Of a stretch of 64,000 nucleotides of DNA, positions 37,877-62,470 are shown piece after piece (positions within the stretch are counted from its first letter, which is position 1; each line of letters begins with the position of its first letter). The notes beneath the pieces were generated by a model. The model was not told the origin of the DNA. It saw only the letters and a program-made list of their open reading frames with translations, and made no database searches. The translations under genes and the position numbers were made by a program. The DNA is from Methylobacter sp. (GTDB lineage: Bacteria; Pseudomonadota; Gammaproteobacteria; Methylococcales; Methylomonadaceae): the NCBI GenBank assembly GCA_030684815.1, contig JAUXXQ010000024.1, positions 1-64,000 on the forward strand. The letters are read 5' to 3'.

Positions 37877-39529
37877 ATGTTAAAGCCCTCTCACCCACGG
37901 CCAACACTTATGAAAAAAACTGCATTGCGCTTCTTACAGACCCATACCAATATGACCCGTGTCATCGGCGAACTTGCGCCAGATTTATTCGGCGAAGGCC
38001 ATGAAAACAAAGGCGATGAGATGCTCTACAAGCTGTTTGTGGAAACCGTCGAACAAGCGCCGATAGCCATTTCCATTACCGATAAAAAAGCCAAAATACT
38101 GTATGTTAACGAAGAGTTTTGCCGTATTACCGGTTACCAGCCTGAAGATGTTTTAGGCGAGAACGAATCGCTGTTATCGGACAAACGCACCCCCAGAAAC
38201 GTGTACCGCGATTTATGGCGCACCATCAGCAGCAAGCTGATATGGCGCGGAACCTTATGTAACCGGCATAAGTCCGGCGAGCGTTATTTGTCCGATTTGA
38301 CCATTGCACCGATGTTGGACGAATCCGGGGCGGTCACGCACTACATTGGTATGCACCGCGATATTACCCAGTCTTATGAATCTGAAAAAAAGGTCATCAA
38401 CCAAAAACTGTTGATCGAATCTGTCATCAACTCATCGCCGATTGCTATGGTCGTGCTTGACGACCAGGACAGGGTTATCCTGGATAACCATAACTACAAA
38501 GCACTGGTCAGCGACTTGGATAAGGGCGAGCCTGCGCTGTATTTTTTACACAAACTGCGCGATGAAATGGGCGGTTTATGGGCGGAGCTGCAAAGCAAGG
38601 AACAAGGCTTTAATCACCGTGAGTTCAAAGTCGAAAGCAAGGGTAGCCAGAAAATCCGTTGGTTTTCCTGTGCAGGGAACTGGTTTGTGGAGAACGAAGT
38701 CAATGCCGATGCCTTTTTTGGTCAAGTCGCCAAACAGTATCTGATACTGACGTTGACCGACATCACCCGGCAACGCAGGCAGCTGGAAGAATTGCATATA
38801 CAGACGCTAAAAACCGTGATGGCCGAAGATGAGCGGGTGCGCGGTATCCGTGAAACATTGTTGGGTGCGATGCACCAAATCCAGATGCCGATGAACCAAA
38901 TTAGGGCGGCCGAACAGATTTTACGGCACAAGGGTGATAAGCAACATGTCGGTTTATTGCAGAGTTTGCAGCAAATTCAGCAGTCCGGCGAAGAAGCGGT
39001 GGCGACCATGCAAAAATGCATACCCGAGATTGTGCAAACCGCCGTTATTCCAGTCAACCTGAACCAGATTCTGCATGAAATGCTGTTGCTCAATAACCAG
39101 CGGATTTGCAGTAATGATATCGAGGTGCATTGGCAGCCGTTGCCGGACTTGCCGACCATGCTGGGTTCTGAAAACCGTCTGCGCATTTTGTTCAAACAAT
39201 TGATAGACAATGCGATTGATGCGGTATGCGCGTCAAACTGTATGGAAAAGCGTTTTAAAATAAATACCTACACCGATGCCGATTTGATTTATGTGTGCAT
39301 CGAAGACAGCGGTTCGGGCATTCCGGTTGAAAAACGCGCCAAAGTCTTTGAGCCTTTTTACACCACGCGCCCGATGGGCGGCAATCAGGCCGGTATGGGA
39401 CTGGTCATGGCAAAGGAGATTGTCAACCAGCATCAGGGCCTCATCGAAATCGACCCGGATTGCGAACAGGGTTGCCGCTTTAAAATCAGCTTTCCTGCGC
39501 ACAGGCAGATAGTTAAGGGGATAGAGTGA
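37877..39529 (+). CDS. nifL: Nitrogen fixation negative regulator NifL
   Basis: The 550-residue protein antagonises NifA in response to oxygen and fixed nitrogen. A first PAS domain (about 55-170, EQAPIAISITDKKAKILYVN, HYIGMHRDIT) would bind FAD. A second PAS-like region follows (about 185-310), then a dimerisation helix with GAMHQIQMPMNQIR (about 334) and a GHKL ATPase domain with LIDNAIDAV, DSGSGIPVEKR and GMGLVMAKEIV. The N and G boxes are intact, so ATP/ADP binding is expected. The start could also be ATG 37910. It overlaps nifA, giving the coupled synthesis typical of the nifLA pair. Confidence 0.93.
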   Translation: MLKPSHPRPTLMKKTALRFLQTHTNMTRVIGELAPDLFGEGHENKGDEMLYKLFVETVEQAPIAISITDKKAKILYVNEEFCRITGYQPEDVLGENESLLSDKRTPRNVYRDLWRTISSKLIWRGTLCNRHKSGERYLSDLTIAPMLDESGAVTHYIGMHRDITQSYESEKKVINQKLLIESVINSSPIAMVVLDDQDRVILDNHNYKALVSDLDKGEPALYFLHKLRDEMGGLWAELQSKEQGFNHREFKVESKGSQKIRWFSCAGNWFVENEVNADAFFGQVAKQYLILTLTDITRQRRQLEELHIQTLKTVMAEDERVRGIRETLLGAMHQIQMPMNQIRAAEQILRHKGDKQHVGLLQSLQQIQQSGEEAVATMQKCIPEIVQTAVIPVNLNQILHEMLLLNNQRICSNDIEVHWQPLPDLPTMLGSENRLRILFKQLIDNAIDAVCASNCMEKRFKINTYTDADLIYVCIEDSGSGIPVEKRAKVFEPFYTTRPMGGNQAGMGLVMAKEIVNQHQGLIEIDPDCEQGCRFKISFPAHRQIVKGIE

Positions 39530-41070
39530 TGACTGAGCGACTCAAACTGATCGAAGCCGAACTCGATACGCTGTACATTATCAGCCAAGTATTGAACAGT
39601 CCGCACGATTTGCATGGCAAATTGCAGGCAGTGTTGGAGATATTGCACAAACGCTCGGGGATGCGTTCCGGCATGATCACGCTACGCGAAATTGAAAATA
39701 ACAGCATGATTGTCAGCGTCGTCCATAGCGACGGCAGCGGCCATTTTACCGAGCCGGTGCGCTACCATCCGGGCGAAGGATTGATGGGCGTGATCCTTGA
39801 TGAAGGCAGCACCATTGTGGTTGAAAAGCTATCCGAGGAGCCGCGTTTTTTAGGCCGTCTTGGCCTGTACGACCCCGAACTGCCGTTTATCGGATCGCCG
39901 ATTTACATAGAGGAGGGCGACACTATCGGCGTATTGGCGGCCCAACCGGACAATAGCCTGTTTCTGGGCGAGCGCGCCCGTTTTATGGAGATGATTGCCA
40001 ACCTGATTGCGCAAAGCGTCAAAATGCTGCGTGGCATCGAACGCAAACAGCGCAACTTGCTCAGCGAACGCGACCAACTCAAACAGGCACTGATCAAAAA
40101 TTACAGCTTTGAAAACATCATCGGCCATTCGCCGCCGATGCTAAAAGTGTTCGATTTAATCCGCCAGGTTGCAAAATGGAACACCACGGTATTAATCCGG
40201 GGCGAATCAGGAACCGGCAAAGAAGTCGTCGCCAATGCGATACACTTTAATTCGGGCTGTGCCGGCGGGCCGTTTTTAAAACTCAATTGCGCCGCCCTGC
40301 CTGACACCTTATTGGAGTCCGAATTGTTCGGCCACGAAAAAGGCGCGTTCAGCGGCGCGGTCAGCCAACGCAAAGGCCGTTTTGAATTGGCCGACAACGG
40401 CACCCTGTTTCTCGATGAAATCGGCGAAATTTCCGCCTCGTTCCAAGCCAAATTGTTACGCGTGTTGCAGGAAGGCGAATTTGAACGGGTCGGCGGCACG
40501 CAAACCATCAAGGTCAATGTGCGCATTATTGCCGCCACCAACCGCGACCTTGAAGAAGAAGTGACCAAAGGCGAGTTCAGGGAAGATTTGTATTACCGTC
40601 TTAACGTGATGCCGGTGTTCATGCCGCCATTGCGCGAGCGGACGGAAGACATTCCGCAGCTGTCCGAATTTTTGCTGGGCAGGATTTCGCAGCAACAAGG
40701 CGGCAGGCCGCTGGAAATCAAAGAAAGCGCGATACGCATCTTGATGAAACACAGCTGGCCGGGCAACGTCCGCGAACTGGCAAATAGGCTAGAGCGCGCC
40801 GCCATCATGAGTCCCAACGGCAGCATCGACCGCGACGTGATGGTCAGCACCGGATTAGAAGATGAAATCGGCACCGGCATCAGCCATAAAGCGCAAAAAG
40901 TGCCTGCGGTTGATTTTAATGATGAGAACATGGACGACCGGGAACGGGTCATCGCCGCGTTGGAGCAAAGCGGCTGGGTGCAAGCGAAAGCGGCGCGCCT
41001 GTTGAACATGACGCCAAGGCAGATTGCCTACCGGATTTTGACGCTGGATATTACGATGAAGCAGATTTGA
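39529..41070 (+). CDS. nifA: Nif-specific transcriptional activator NifA
   Basis: The 513-residue sigma-54-dependent activator has an N-terminal GAF domain (about 20-165), an AAA+ domain with Walker A GESGTGKE (about 226) and the sigma-54 contact loop GAFSGA, and a Fis-type helix-turn-helix at the end (WVQAKAARLLNMTPRQIAYR). No CxxxxC oxygen-sensing linker is evident, which fits a NifL-controlled NifA. The ATG at 39529 overlaps the nifL TGA by one base; a GTG one codon earlier is possible. Its predicted targets are the TGT-N10-ACA sites listed. Confidence 0.95.
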   Translation: MTERLKLIEAELDTLYIISQVLNSPHDLHGKLQAVLEILHKRSGMRSGMITLREIENNSMIVSVVHSDGSGHFTEPVRYHPGEGLMGVILDEGSTIVVEKLSEEPRFLGRLGLYDPELPFIGSPIYIEEGDTIGVLAAQPDNSLFLGERARFMEMIANLIAQSVKMLRGIERKQRNLLSERDQLKQALIKNYSFENIIGHSPPMLKVFDLIRQVAKWNTTVLIRGESGTGKEVVANAIHFNSGCAGGPFLKLNCAALPDTLLESELFGHEKGAFSGAVSQRKGRFELADNGTLFLDEIGEISASFQAKLLRVLQEGEFERVGGTQTIKVNVRIIAATNRDLEEEVTKGEFREDLYYRLNVMPVFMPPLRERTEDIPQLSEFLLGRISQQQGGRPLEIKESAIRILMKHSWPGNVRELANRLERAAIMSPNGSIDRDVMVSTGLEDEIGTGISHKAQKVPAVDFNDENMDDRERVIAALEQSGWVQAKAARLLNMTPRQIAYRILTLDITMKQI

Positions 41071-41584: not shown

Positions 41585-41723
41585 GGCTATCAACTTAACA
41601 CGGGGCAGACCTTCCAGGTTTTTACTGGAGCCGCTCCCGGCGGCTCCAGCACTTCCGCTATCCATGGCAGTCGTAAAACCTGGAAGGTCTACTTCGGCAA
41701 GCTTGTCCTGCTTTAAATGGGAA
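41585..41723. repeat. Repeat family A, inverted copy with a replaced loop
   Basis: The arms are as in the other copies (TATCAACTTAACACGGGGC on the left, CAAGCTTGTCCTGCTTTAAATGG on the right), but the hairpin's short loop is expanded to about 60 bp. That loop contains its own hairpin CTGGAGCCGC-TCCC-GGCGGCTCCAG. It looks like an insertion precisely at the tip of the stem. Confidence 0.75.
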
Positions 41724-41924: not shown

Positions 41925-42386
41925 CTATTTTTTCTCTGAAATCACCCGCCTCAAACAAACCAACTGCGTCGATTGCCAGCCTTGCCGTTGATAAAACCCC
42001 AGCGCGGGAGCGTTGTTTTTATCCGCCAGCAACTGCAAGCGTTTAAGCCCCCGTTGCTTGGCCCACTTAACAACCTCAGCGAGTAGTTTTGCGCCTATGC
42101 CTTGATTATGGACATCAGCCGCTACCACTAAATCTTCCAGCAGACCGACCTCGCCGCCTTCGGCTGTAGAAATCAAAATTTGTAGGCTGCACATGGCGCA
42201 CAGGCCATTGCCGGAAGCCAATTCGGCCACCCAAATACAGGCATTGTCGCTGTGCAGTAGCAACTGTAATCCACGCGCCTGTTTGTCTGCATCGAAATCA
42301 AAATCGGCTTCAATCGCGAACAAAGTTTGTAACAGCACGACCAGTTGCGGGACATCCTTTGGTTGTGCCGTCCGTATATTGACCAT
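41925..42386 (-). CDS. GNAT family N-acetyltransferase
   Basis: The 153-residue protein shows the GNAT acetyl-CoA-binding pattern: LLEDLVVAADVHNQGIGAKLLAEVVKW (motif A, with Q/GxGxxL/A near 95) and a C-terminal ALGFYQRQGWQ (motif B). The acceptor is unknown. It is on the minus strand 10 bp downstream of the unknown gene at 42397, so it is probably the third gene of the NifA-controlled SIR2-like operon. Confidence 0.85.
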   Translation of the reverse strand: MVNIRTAQPKDVPQLVVLLQTLFAIEADFDFDADKQARGLQLLLHSDNACIWVAELASGNGLCAMCSLQILISTAEGGEVGLLEDLVVAADVHNQGIGAKLLAEVVKWAKQRGLKRLQLLADKNNAPALGFYQRQGWQSTQLVCLRRVISEKK

Positions 42387-42396
42387 TGTTAAATGC

Positions 42397-42834
42397 CTAC
42401 ATGACTTTGGTATAGGCGCGGCGCAATAATTCCATTTCCGCAGGCGGCCTGCCGCGCAGTTCCGGCAATGTCCGCATCCGGCACTCCCGGCTTTGCATCA
42501 GCTTGTGCGGCGGGTCGAGCAGCATGAATCGCGCCATGTGGACGGTGATAATGCCGCTGGGGGTGTCGATTTGTTCGCTAAACTCCGGCTCGACGCGCAG
42601 CAGGTCATTGTCCAATTGCAACAACTGGTTGATGTTACTGACCAGCATGGCCGGATGGGTGCAGACTTTTTCGCTGATGAACTGTTCAGGTTCCAGCGCG
42701 CTGGATAAGGCTGGCAGCGGCTCGGGAAAGCAAATGCTGCCGTTGGCGTGTTGGGCGAACAGTATCAAGGCACTGATGTCGCCTTTGTAATACAGCAGCA
42801 GCCGGTGCTTGGCGAAACTATTGGGCTCGACCAT
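42397..42834 (-). CDS. Unknown protein coupled to the SIR2-like gene
   Basis: The 145-residue protein starts MVEPNSFAKHRLLLYYKGD and ends LRGRPPAEMELLRRAYTKVM. No catalytic motif is recognised. Its ATG overlaps the stop of the SIR2-like gene (ATGA), so the two are translationally coupled. The shared NifA/sigma-54-like promoter ties it to nitrogen fixation. Confidence 0.7.
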   Translation of the reverse strand: MVEPNSFAKHRLLLYYKGDISALILFAQHANGSICFPEPLPALSSALEPEQFISEKVCTHPAMLVSNINQLLQLDNDLLRVEPEFSEQIDTPSGIITVHMARFMLLDPPHKLMQSRECRMRTLPELRGRPPAEMELLRRAYTKVM

Positions 42835-43673
42835 CAGTGCAGCACAAGTTCAAGCAGGTCTTCAACGCCCGCATCGATTATTTCCAAGCCTATTTTTTTG
42901 CAATAGCGTATTTCTTTATTGGTCGGGTTTTTGTTTAAAACCCAGCCTTTATGCTCGGCCGCGCCGTAAACGATGTCGCTCATCACCATGCGCTCCGAAT
43001 CCCGGTTTAGCGGCATGCCTATAAACAGGTATTGCTTGCCTTTGCGGTATTCTTTCAGGAAATCGGGTATGGCAAAGCCGCCCATCAGCTCGGTGATATA
43101 ATCGACATAATCGGCATCGGATGCGATGTAATTGGCTTCGGGTTTGGGTGTGCCCAACGGTTTGAAGAGTATGGGGAACCGGTGGTCAATCTGTTCCTGC
43201 GGTATTTCAAAATAATCACTGCCGTCATAGTGGTAGATTTTAAAGCGGAACTGGCTGGCGGTGATCCGTGCGACGCCAACAATCAGCGTATGTTCTTCAT
43301 CGGCATAGCTATCCTGTAATTGGGTGTCGCGGTTGATGTCGATCACATACGCGGGTCGCCATTCCGCCAGCCAATCGTGTACTGCGGCACGGGTGTATTC
43401 GGTTTCGCCGTATAACTTGGTCAGGAACTGGCCGAGAAAATTCCGGCCCCGTTTGAGTTCCTGGTTCATTGCCGCCCGGGGGAACTCGTACATCAGTTTG
43501 GGCGCCATCGGCTTGCCGTTGTTCATCGCCAAAATCAGGCTGTTGCTGTCGGCAGGCATCGGCGCGCCGGTGGCTTTGTTGGTGGCATCGAACAGCGCGC
43601 CAGGGCCCAGATAAGGCACGACTGAGTTGTCGTACAAACCGCTTAATATTTCAGAAAAAACCGTGGAAGACAT
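42834..43673 (-). CDS. SIR2-like domain protein, divergent from nifH
   Basis: The 279-residue protein starts at ATG 43673 (GGAG eight bases before it; the frame extends upstream to 43760, but without a ribosome-binding site). It opens SSTVFSEILSGLYDNSVVPYLGPGAL, reminiscent of the SIR2-like NAD-binding start in which GxGxS is altered. The C-terminal half has QYLFIGMPLNRDSERMV and GWVLNKNPTNKEIRYCKKIGLEII, typical of the SIR2-like Rossmann fold (SSD near RYCKK). NAD hydrolysis or binding is possible. An NAD-linked regulatory role in nitrogenase control is inference. It is the first gene of the operon. Confidence 0.7.
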   Translation of the reverse strand: MSSTVFSEILSGLYDNSVVPYLGPGALFDATNKATGAPMPADSNSLILAMNNGKPMAPKLMYEFPRAAMNQELKRGRNFLGQFLTKLYGETEYTRAAVHDWLAEWRPAYVIDINRDTQLQDSYADEEHTLIVGVARITASQFRFKIYHYDGSDYFEIPQEQIDHRFPILFKPLGTPKPEANYIASDADYVDYITELMGGFAIPDFLKEYRKGKQYLFIGMPLNRDSERMVMSDIVYGAAEHKGWVLNKNPTNKEIRYCKKIGLEIIDAGVEDLLELVLH

Positions 43674-43709
43674 TGCAAACTCCATTAATAAGTAGGGTAT
43701 CTTTATATA

Positions 43710-43725
43710 AGCAATATTCAATCCA
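43710..43725 (-). promoter_or_regulatory. Sigma-54-like promoter of the SIR2-like operon
   Basis: The minus-strand sequence TGGATTGAATATTGCT keeps GG and GC 10 nt apart and a full TTGCT -12 box; -22/-21 differ from the TGGCAC consensus. It lies about 25 bp before the start codon at 43673 once the +1 is allowed for. Confidence 0.5.
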
Positions 43726-43802
43726 GTTTTTAATAAACAATATAAATAACTGATTAACAAGAAGTTAAAGGTTTTGTTGGTTGGTAAATGCAGCGGGCAT
43801 TT

Positions 43803-43818
43803 TGTTCTGTTTATAACA
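43803..43818. promoter_or_regulatory. NifA upstream activator site (SIR2-like operon)
   Basis: TGT-TCTGTTTATA-ACA is an exact TGT-N10-ACA match, 78 bp upstream of the minus-strand sigma-54-like element. It could alternatively assist nifH, which it faces at a distance of about 380 bp. Confidence 0.65.
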
Positions 43819-43845: not shown

Positions 43846-43878
43846 AGACGTTCCAGGTTTTAAAAACCTGGAACGTCT
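43846..43878. repeat. Repeat family A stem between divergent nif operons
   Basis: AGACGTTCCAGGTTT and AAACCTGGAACGTCT form the family A hairpin. Both arms carry a compensating change (CGTTCC/GGAACG) relative to the other copies (CCTTCC/GGAAGG), which suggests the stem pairing is under selection. Confidence 0.7.
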
Positions 43879-44076: not shown

Positions 44077-44092
44077 TGTTACTAAGCCTACA
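44077..44092. promoter_or_regulatory. NifA upstream activator site (nifH)
   Basis: TGT-TACTAAGCCT-ACA is an exact TGT-N10-ACA match, about 97 bp upstream of the nifH -24 element. Confidence 0.85.
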
Positions 44093-44188
44093 GAACACAA
44101 CAAAATGTTTGAAACACAACGTTTATTGCTCTGATTGAAAACGATAATAATCTTTATTATTCAATATGTTAATATCTGTTATTGCAAT

Positions 44189-44204
44189 TGGCACAGCCCT
44201 TGCT
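44189..44204 (+). promoter_or_regulatory. Sigma-54 promoter of nifHDK
   Basis: TGGCACAGCCCTTGCT matches TGGCAC-N5-TTGC(A/T) perfectly. Transcription would start near 44216, giving a leader of about 37 nt before the nifH ATG with GAGGAGA as ribosome-binding site. Confidence 0.93.
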
Positions 44205-44237: not shown

Positions 44238-45134
<897 letters not shown>

Positions 45135-61519: not shown

Positions 61520-62470
61520 ATGGAAAATCCGACGCGAATCTACGAGCTGTTGCTGGATTATGCCGCCAGCGACACCACGGTCACCGAGTTAAACATCGGC
61601 CTAGTGTGGACGGTTTGTAAGGCGCAATACACCGGCCTGGCGATGAGTCCCGGCATTCCAACGCGTACCCTGTCGTGGCCGGGCACCTTGGCCGGTAAGA
61701 CCTTGGCGGAATTGGCCGGATGGATTACCGACTGGGAACCTTACAAAGCCACGGTGGCGATGGCGGCGATCAATTGCAGCTTGAACCGCTATGAACTCCC
61801 GGCCGGTATCACTCTGTTGCCGACTCCCGGTAACGCCAATCTGGCGGTTTTCGAACATTTTTTGCCCCGGCTGCAAGGCAAGAAAGTCGTCGTCATCGGC
61901 CATTATCCGGGCATTGAACGCTATGCCGAACAGATCAACCTCAGCATCATCGAACGCCAGCCCGGCGCTTCCGATTACCCCGATCCCGCCTGCGAATTTT
62001 TAGTGCCCGACGCCGACTGGGTGTTTTTAACGGCCAGTTCCATCACCAACAAAACCTTCCCGCGCCTGGCCGAACTGGCCCAACACGCCACAACAGTATT
62101 GATGGGGCCGACCGTGCCCTGGCTGCCCGAACTGCACACCTTCGGCATTGATTATCTGGCGGGTATTGAAATCATCGACCCGGTAAAACTGTCACAAACA
62201 GCGGCGGAAGGCGGCGGTGTGCGCATTTTTGACGAGGCGGTGCGTTACCGTATTGTTGACCTGACACCCGACAACAGCATGGCGTGGTTGAAGGATCAAA
62301 TCGCCCAAGATTATGAACACAGGCAACGGCTAAACCGGACTATGGAGCAGTGGTACAATTCCGGGCAAAAAGGCCGCTTCCCTGAGTTTAACCGGCTCAA
62401 TCAGGTAACGGCCAAGCTTTCGCGCATGGACAGCAGCTATAAGCGGCTGTGGGATGTGCATTCGGCATGA
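61520..62470 (+). CDS. DUF364 (heavy-metal chelation domain) protein
   Basis: The 316-residue protein has an N-terminal DUF4213-like domain (about 1-110; SPGIPTRTLSWPGTLAGKTL) and a Rossmann-like DUF364 domain with KKVVVIGHYPGIERYAE (about 120) and FLTASSITNKTFPRLAELA, TTVLMGPTVPWLPELHTFGI. Relatives are proposed to bind heavy metals. As the last gene of the nif run, a role in molybdenum or other metal handling for nitrogenase is inferred. Confidence 0.82.
   Translation: MENPTRIYELLLDYAASDTTVTELNIGLVWTVCKAQYTGLAMSPGIPTRTLSWPGTLAGKTLAELAGWITDWEPYKATVAMAAINCSLNRYELPAGITLLPTPGNANLAVFEHFLPRLQGKKVVVIGHYPGIERYAEQINLSIIERQPGASDYPDPACEFLVPDADWVFLTASSITNKTFPRLAELAQHATTVLMGPTVPWLPELHTFGIDYLAGIEIIDPVKLSQTAAEGGGVRIFDEAVRYRIVDLTPDNSMAWLKDQIAQDYEHRQRLNRTMEQWYNSGQKGRFPEFNRLNQVTAKLSRMDSSYKRLWDVHSA

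Follow-up and report, generated by a model that had tools for sequence, protein, structure and literature searches.

Genes for SIR2-like proteins have been recorded inside or beside nitrogen-fixation (nif) clusters in several bacteria. In Z. mobilis, the SIR2-like gene ZMO1821 of the nif island is reported to be upregulated under nitrogen fixation and has been proposed to encode a deacetylase, with NifA, NifH and NifK found acetylated in the same organism (PMC8600466). For Rcc03262, the SIR2 protein of the R. capsulatus nif cluster (operon nifB1-rcc03265-nifZT-rcc03262), values are given in the wild type, with "NF", taken here to mean not found, in a nifA double mutant (PMC6925177). The M. loti gene msi351 is listed within a NifA-regulated cluster, and an msi351::lacZ mutant is described as fully effective in symbiosis (PMC3538637). 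Other printed examples are PST_1325 of the P. stutzeri nif island, a SIR2 family gene numbered directly before nifH PST_1326 (PMC11332353), and a nifZ-nifT-SIR2 arrangement in Rhodovulum (PMC9412634). The order nifA-nifB-4Fe4S-nifZ-nifT-SIR2 is found on R. etli p42d, where the SIR2 gene is RHE_RS30545. Apart from the reports cited here, the matches listed by searches of the open full-text literature included no study of what nif SIR2-like proteins do. An earlier note on the locus considered below knew of no described system of its kind; SIR2-like nif genes and the deacetylase idea for ZMO1821 are already in print, and the acylation-based control that it suggested is therefore close to a published proposal (PMC8600466).

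In the window, by which is meant the whole stretch of 64,000 nucleotides analysed, three minus-strand genes lie divergent from nifH (44253-45134, plus strand; TIGR01287 over its cut-off), as the earlier note had described. The gene nearest to nifH encodes a SIR2-like, nif-linked protein of 279 aa (42834-43673), identified by a PF13289 SIR2_2 match (29.8 bits, cut-off 24.5), AlphaFold2 modeling, Foldseek comparison, homologues and synteny, with its start taken as the ATG at 43673. It is followed by a gene for a 145-aa protein (42397-42834, minus strand) with no Pfam match over the cut-off, no NCBIfam match at E 1 and an unusable structure model (pLDDT 56), and, after a spacing of 10 bp, by a gene for a GNAT-family acetyltransferase of 153 aa (41925-42386, minus strand; PF00583, 61.8 bits, cut-off 20.7), for which no NCBIfam equivalog exceeded its cut-off among the 25 matches listed. 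The SIR2-like gene and the middle gene do overlap, as claimed, but by a single base in the form TGATG and not as ATGA. The nif region as a whole runs from rnf genes through nifL (37877-39529, plus strand; TIGR02938, 597.8 bits) and nifA (39526-41070, plus strand; TIGR01817, 661.1 bits) to the three minus-strand genes and then nifHDK, the names rnf and nifDK being assigned by eye on translations. Loci whose SIR2 protein is 92-95% identical to that of the window belong to Methylobacter, according to the homologue search, in line with a Methylobacter-like methanotroph as the source of the window. Similar palindromic stretches of the ACGTTCCAGGTTT / ACCTTCCAGGTTT type, recognized by eye, flank the operon at about 43847-43877 and 41607-41690, and are possibly a repeated REP-like element.

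Upstream of the SIR2-like gene, both promoter features named in the earlier note are present. A sigma-54-like -24/-12 element, CTGGATTGAATATTGCT, occupies 43710-43726 on the minus strand, 53 bp before the ATG, and a motif match to TGT-N10-ACA, the NifA-type upstream activator site, lies at 43803-43818. On the nifH side, a second TGT-N10-ACA match is found at 44077-44092, together with a plus-strand sigma-54-like element, TTGGCACAGCCCTTGCT, at 44188-44204 that scores 15.55 of 16.25 under a scheme built in this analysis from a -24/-12 consensus. By itself, the element of the SIR2-like gene is borderline (13.05 versus a shuffle 95% point of 12.95), and its homologues were surveyed at 79 of 80 loci, one (L064) being left out because too little upstream DNA was available. 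A sigma-54-like score of at least 12.5 precedes the SIR2 homologue in 73 of these 79 loci, compared with 83 of 544 control open reading frames (ORFs) from the same loci, and the homologues' elements mostly stand approximately 48-62 bp before the start. A TGT-N10-ACA site occurs 40-200 bp upstream of that element in 64/79 loci versus 26/544 control ORFs. The 79 loci are related by descent and hence not independent; even with shared descent allowed for, control by NifA and sigma-54 is credible because the elements recur far above the control ORFs. Predicted NifA/sigma-54 control of the SIR2-like gene, claimed previously for the whole operon, is thereby well supported. Where nifH is divergent, one TGT-N10-ACA site might serve nifH as well.

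The link to nitrogen fixation extends to other diazotrophs. Among the 80 loci, nifH lies divergent within 2 kb in 40, divergent at a greater distance in 4 and on the same strand in 3, and is absent from the examined stretch in 33. Among 61 relatives, including the window's own genome, the SIR2 gene occurs in 29, nifH in 28 and both in 26, i.e., in 26 of 28 nifH-positive versus 3 of 33 nifH-negative genomes; the three relatives with the SIR2 gene and without nifH are 77-81% complete. In a family from another class of the phylum (f63, 149 genomes), 38 carry the SIR2 gene, 38 carry nifH and 35 carry both, which amounts to 35/38 genomes with nifH versus 3/111 without it. Across a sample of 397 genomes from the phylum, the window-type profile found the SIR2 gene in 20, with nifH in 44 and both in 17; these first counts are lower bounds because that profile alone was used. 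Adding a second profile raised the number to 18 of the 44 nifH genomes (through G423), plus a fragment in G429. This second profile covered the 44 nifH genomes only; for the 353 nifH-negative ones, searched with the window-type profile, the 3 carriers detected are a minimum. Co-occurrence with nifH was assessed by Fisher tests on the first counts. In two genomes with the SIR2 gene and no nifH match (G103 and G269), the gene sits in a nifA-nifB-nifT cluster. Three others with a SIR2-like gene and no nifH at E 1e-80 (G128, G583 and G597) are listed as 99-100% complete. In a class sample of 377 genomes, in which the SIR2 gene alone was sought, 38 carry it. No full-length copy was found with either profile in 26 of the 44 nifH genomes of the phylum sample, so the gene is not essential; in three nifH-positive genomes (G391, G411 and G248), a search of 13 kb each with the two profiles revealed no SIR2-like ORF near nifH. 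The SIR2 gene defines a nif-linked proteobacterial family that comprises two subclades and tracks nifH.

Members of the window type often lie near nifH, draT, nifQ or hemerythrin genes. The second type shares 25-30% identity with the window type; each of the 13 loci examined over a longer stretch has nifT within approximately 2 kb. These 13 include the rhizobial loci, where the gene and its counterpart on the R. etli symbiotic plasmid are 99.4% identical. A later set of loci, extracted with 1.5 kb flanks, gave nifH matches at 12 of the 22 of window type and nifT matches at 2 of the 6 of second type, while none of the genes sought was found in 2/22 and 4/6, respectively. The two types align over 267 columns (hhalign E 4.7e-33) and cluster together, separately from 13 ordinary SIR2_2 proteins (support 100/99), in a tree whose long outgroup branches were flagged by the tool; only 58% of its bootstrap trees unite the second subclade on one side of a branch. 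When 72,556 plasmids were searched by BLAST with the window protein, 72 records were returned, which by name comprise 70 from rhizobia and their kin, one from Methylococcus and one from Paraburkholderia. At three second-type loci, a DegT/DnrJ/EryC1-type aminotransferase gene (approximately 290 bits each) lies between nifT and the SIR2 gene (L114:4918-6111, L121:11557-12777 and L124:6496-7707); we know of no nif role for such an enzyme. Three more SIR2_2 matches occur in the window's own genome (G000), in frames of 816, 434 and 422 aa on contigs C105, C70 and C180, and are perhaps defence-type proteins. A ThsA homologue (688 bits to PDB 8wc0) is found at locus L131 in a genome of the same genus (G011).

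Of the three minus-strand genes, the SIR2 gene alone shows conservation with nif. What follows its homologue varies across the 80 loci: the middle gene comes directly after it in 12, of which 11 continue with a GlcF-like gene (199.8 bits to the GlcF model, below the cut-off of 333). In relatives, the middle gene thus belongs with the GlcF-like gene; the closest protein to that GlcF in the window's own genome is only 38% identical. In the loci examined, a GNAT gene accompanies another SIR2 homologue only at L053, with 33% identity, and a remnant of 29 residues (76% identity) persists at L027, making the acetyltransferase nearly private to this genome. The idea of a single SIR2-acetyltransferase system built from the three genes was accordingly rejected on the context of the GNAT and middle genes in relatives, and both are probably passengers of the transcript in this genome. 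Elsewhere, the SIR2 gene is followed by a flavodoxin and a Rieske protein, or by a Cys-rich small protein, which matches DUF1289 under its cut-off, and a hemerythrin. The latter pair, with a Cys-rich protein of 73-108 aa, stands closely behind the SIR2-like gene in 8 of the 80 loci (L063, L064, L065, L066, L069, L071, L073 and L088), sometimes with draT before and draG behind, which hints at an oxygen-related nif operon. A DUF364 protein is encoded in the window at 61520-62470 (PF04016, 131.6 bits); its homologue (cluster c38) directly follows SIR2 in L035, L038 and L040 and lies one gene further in L031.

The SIR2 assignment held under structure prediction, where its failure had been named in the earlier note as a refutation. 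The AlphaFold2 model of the SIR2-like protein (pLDDT 83, pTM 0.85) was matched by Foldseek to the SIR2 domain of DSR2 in the PDB (E 5.3e-9, query TM 0.60) and also to those of KomC and ThsA, all among the best 50 of 449 matches. PF13289 scores of 52.8-75.3 bits were obtained for all 10 second-subclade proteins scanned. On this modeling, the protein is predicted to have a SIR2 (Rossmann-type) fold and to belong to the SIR2_2 family. By comparison, no Pfam match to the classical sirtuin families was obtained for it at E 1, and a zinc ribbon is absent because the protein has one Cys only. Considering that the window-type profile gave no match to PDB sequences at E 1 and only the second-subclade profile reached ThsA among them, the window protein was tied to the catalytic positions via the alignment of the two subclades.

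In the ThsA profile alignment of the second subclade, W-Y-D falls on T-N-Y-D and K-P-L-G on K-M-H-G, with one ThsA entry in that output showing Ala at the Asn. The Asn of T-N-Y-D and the His of K-M-H-G are presumably the catalytic residues, and the PDB titles DSR2 H171A and KomC H146N agree with a catalytic His. The window protein keeps the Asn of N-x-D and has Leu at the His position (residues 115 and 174 in the A1 numbering, in which the count starts one codon upstream of the ATG). Across the window type, Asn is present in 87/87 proteins and His in 0/87 (Met in 70, Leu in 17), with Asn in 22/22 and His in 0/22 of a later sample; in the second type, Trp replaces the Asn in 51/51 and His is found in 31/51, compared with Trp in 6/6 and His in 0/6 later on. 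Redundancy was retained in the rows of the window-type set of 87 and of the later samples of 22 and 6. Asn and His together were thus found in none of the 87 and 22 window-type or the 51 and 6 second-type proteins. Of the 14 ordinary SIR2_2 proteins of relatives, 13 have N-x-D by pattern and 10 of these also have HG in the expected place; with HG missing by pattern in 3 of the 13, the absence of His is not unique to the nif-linked family. A new point is that the active site, as read from the alignments, is degenerate in every family member examined, from which we infer that sirtuin-type catalysis has been lost. The acylation or NAD-consuming chemistry envisaged in the earlier note accordingly found no support.

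Whether a ligand site has been kept is a separate matter. N115, R116, D117, G175, D187 and D189 are each invariant in the 87 window-type proteins, as is Trp-Tyr in the 51 of the second type, and such strict conservation of pocket-side motifs suggests a retained site. The entry titles DSR2 H171A-NAD+ and KomC H146N-NAD-fragment likewise suggest that binding can persist once the His is lost. On the other hand, nucleotide binding may be lost too, since the Ser of the ThsA GAG-x-S loop is replaced in the nif-linked protein (PYLGPGAL) and the last Gly is D or A in 9/51 second-type proteins.

The reading tentatively preferred here, at somewhat less than an even chance, is that the SIR2-like product is a non-catalytic, nucleotide-binding nif accessory protein, acting as a sensor or in assembly and switched on by NifA and sigma-54, with the middle and GNAT genes as passengers. 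Because no examined member has both Asn and His, a role as deacetylase or NADase is unlikely, and a helper or sensor is the more likely kind of protein. NifA and sigma-54 would switch on the gene together with nifH, a step strongly supported by the promoter motifs. The protein, without the Asn/His pair, most likely would neither deacetylate nor hydrolyse NAD in the sirtuin way. The remaining steps are guesses: the nucleotide pocket may be kept as a ligand site, the protein might serve as a non-catalytic sensor or assembly factor of NAD(H) or ADP-ribose type, and this factor might touch nitrogenase or its maturation machinery while the cell fixes nitrogen. A bolder form, in which a widespread pseudo-sirtuin of the nif regulon binds NAD(H) or an ADP-ribose ligand uncleaved and ties the activity or assembly of nitrogenase to the redox or energy state of the cell, independently of DraT/DraG and NifL, seems rather unlikely as a whole. 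The full effectiveness of the M. loti mutant and the many nifH genomes in which the gene is missing argue against a strong role.

The alternative that survives best, possible if on the unlikely side, is a structural factor for nif maturation or stability that uses the SIR2 fold as a nucleotide-free scaffold in the NifB-NifZ-NifT cofactor pathway or in MoFe-protein maturation. It fits the replaced catalytic positions, the p42d gene order and the second subclade, which is mostly also near nifB in the loci where it adjoins nifT; yet the pocket-side motifs are strictly conserved, the window type lies near nifH, draT or nifQ and not nifT, and nifT was matched in only two of the six later second-type loci. 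It is improbable that the protein is an active NAD-dependent deacetylase or deacylase working with acetyltransferases to set how far nitrogenase and NifA are acetylated, the proposal published for ZMO1821. The expression of ZMO1821, the acetylated Nif proteins and the GNAT gene adjoining the SIR2-like gene in the window are in its favor, but the Asn/His pair is missing throughout the compared set (to which ZMO1821 does not belong), classical sirtuin matches and a zinc ribbon are lacking, and the GNAT is not conserved beside SIR2 homologues.

A third part of the DraT/DraG switch, which ADP-ribosylates NifH, looked promising from the neighbourhood: draT occurs in 9/80 and draG in 12/80 loci, all outside methanotrophs (counted by protein clusters, with family membership confirmed for two draT and one draG), draT in 5/28 and draG in 3/28 later loci, and draT is also present on another contig of the window's own genome. 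Co-occurrence ruled this partnership out as a working candidate and leaves it with little probability. The 44 nifH genomes divide into 9 with both genes, 9 with SIR2 only, 19 with draT only and 7 with neither (two-sided Fisher p 0.20, in the negative direction; 8/9/20/7 and p 0.11 with the first profile alone), and Z. mobilis has the nif SIR2 gene, with draT/draG stated as not identified in the account given by PMC8594446. A defence NADase of ThsA or DSR2 type captured by the nif regulon, a possibility also raised before, is very improbable: the nearest solved folds are DSR2, KomC and ThsA (among the best 50 of 449) and four second-type proteins match ThsA models weakly in PADLOC (13-21 bits), but the protein is a single 279-aa domain without the catalytic pair, its distribution follows nifH, neither the three window genes nor L065 matched in PADLOC, and a search of 50,697 phage records at E 1e-3 found no match.

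That a functionally uncharacterized gene accompanies nifH so closely across several proteobacterial groups leaves a gap in the parts list for nif engineering. What was found at the active site speaks against the deacetylase reading in print and directs experiments toward searches for ligands and partners; NAD(H) sensing, if true, would connect nitrogenase to redox state by a route that does not depend on DraT.

Compared with known systems, the three genes share with the DraT/DraG switch an NAD theme and, at some loci, neighbouring genes, but contain neither of its domains and show no co-occurrence with it. Classical sirtuin deacetylases of CobB type have the SIR2 superfamily name in common with the window protein, which differs in lacking their family match, zinc Cys and catalytic His. 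The SIR2_2 defence NADases ThsA, DSR2 and KomC are similar in SIR2_2 fold, GxG loop and the D of N-x-D, whereas the nif-linked protein is without the Asn and His pair and without a second domain. The R. etli homologue RHE_RS30545 belongs to the second subclade and shares 25% identity with the window protein across 96%; the family is linked to msi351 through the R. etli cluster, called complete in PMC3538637. Like the window gene, rcc03262, msi351, ZMO1821, PST_1325 and the Rhodovulum gene are SIR2-like and lie inside or beside nif, a likeness drawn solely from their printed contexts. The window gene is a member of an already noticed, functionally little-studied nif-linked family.
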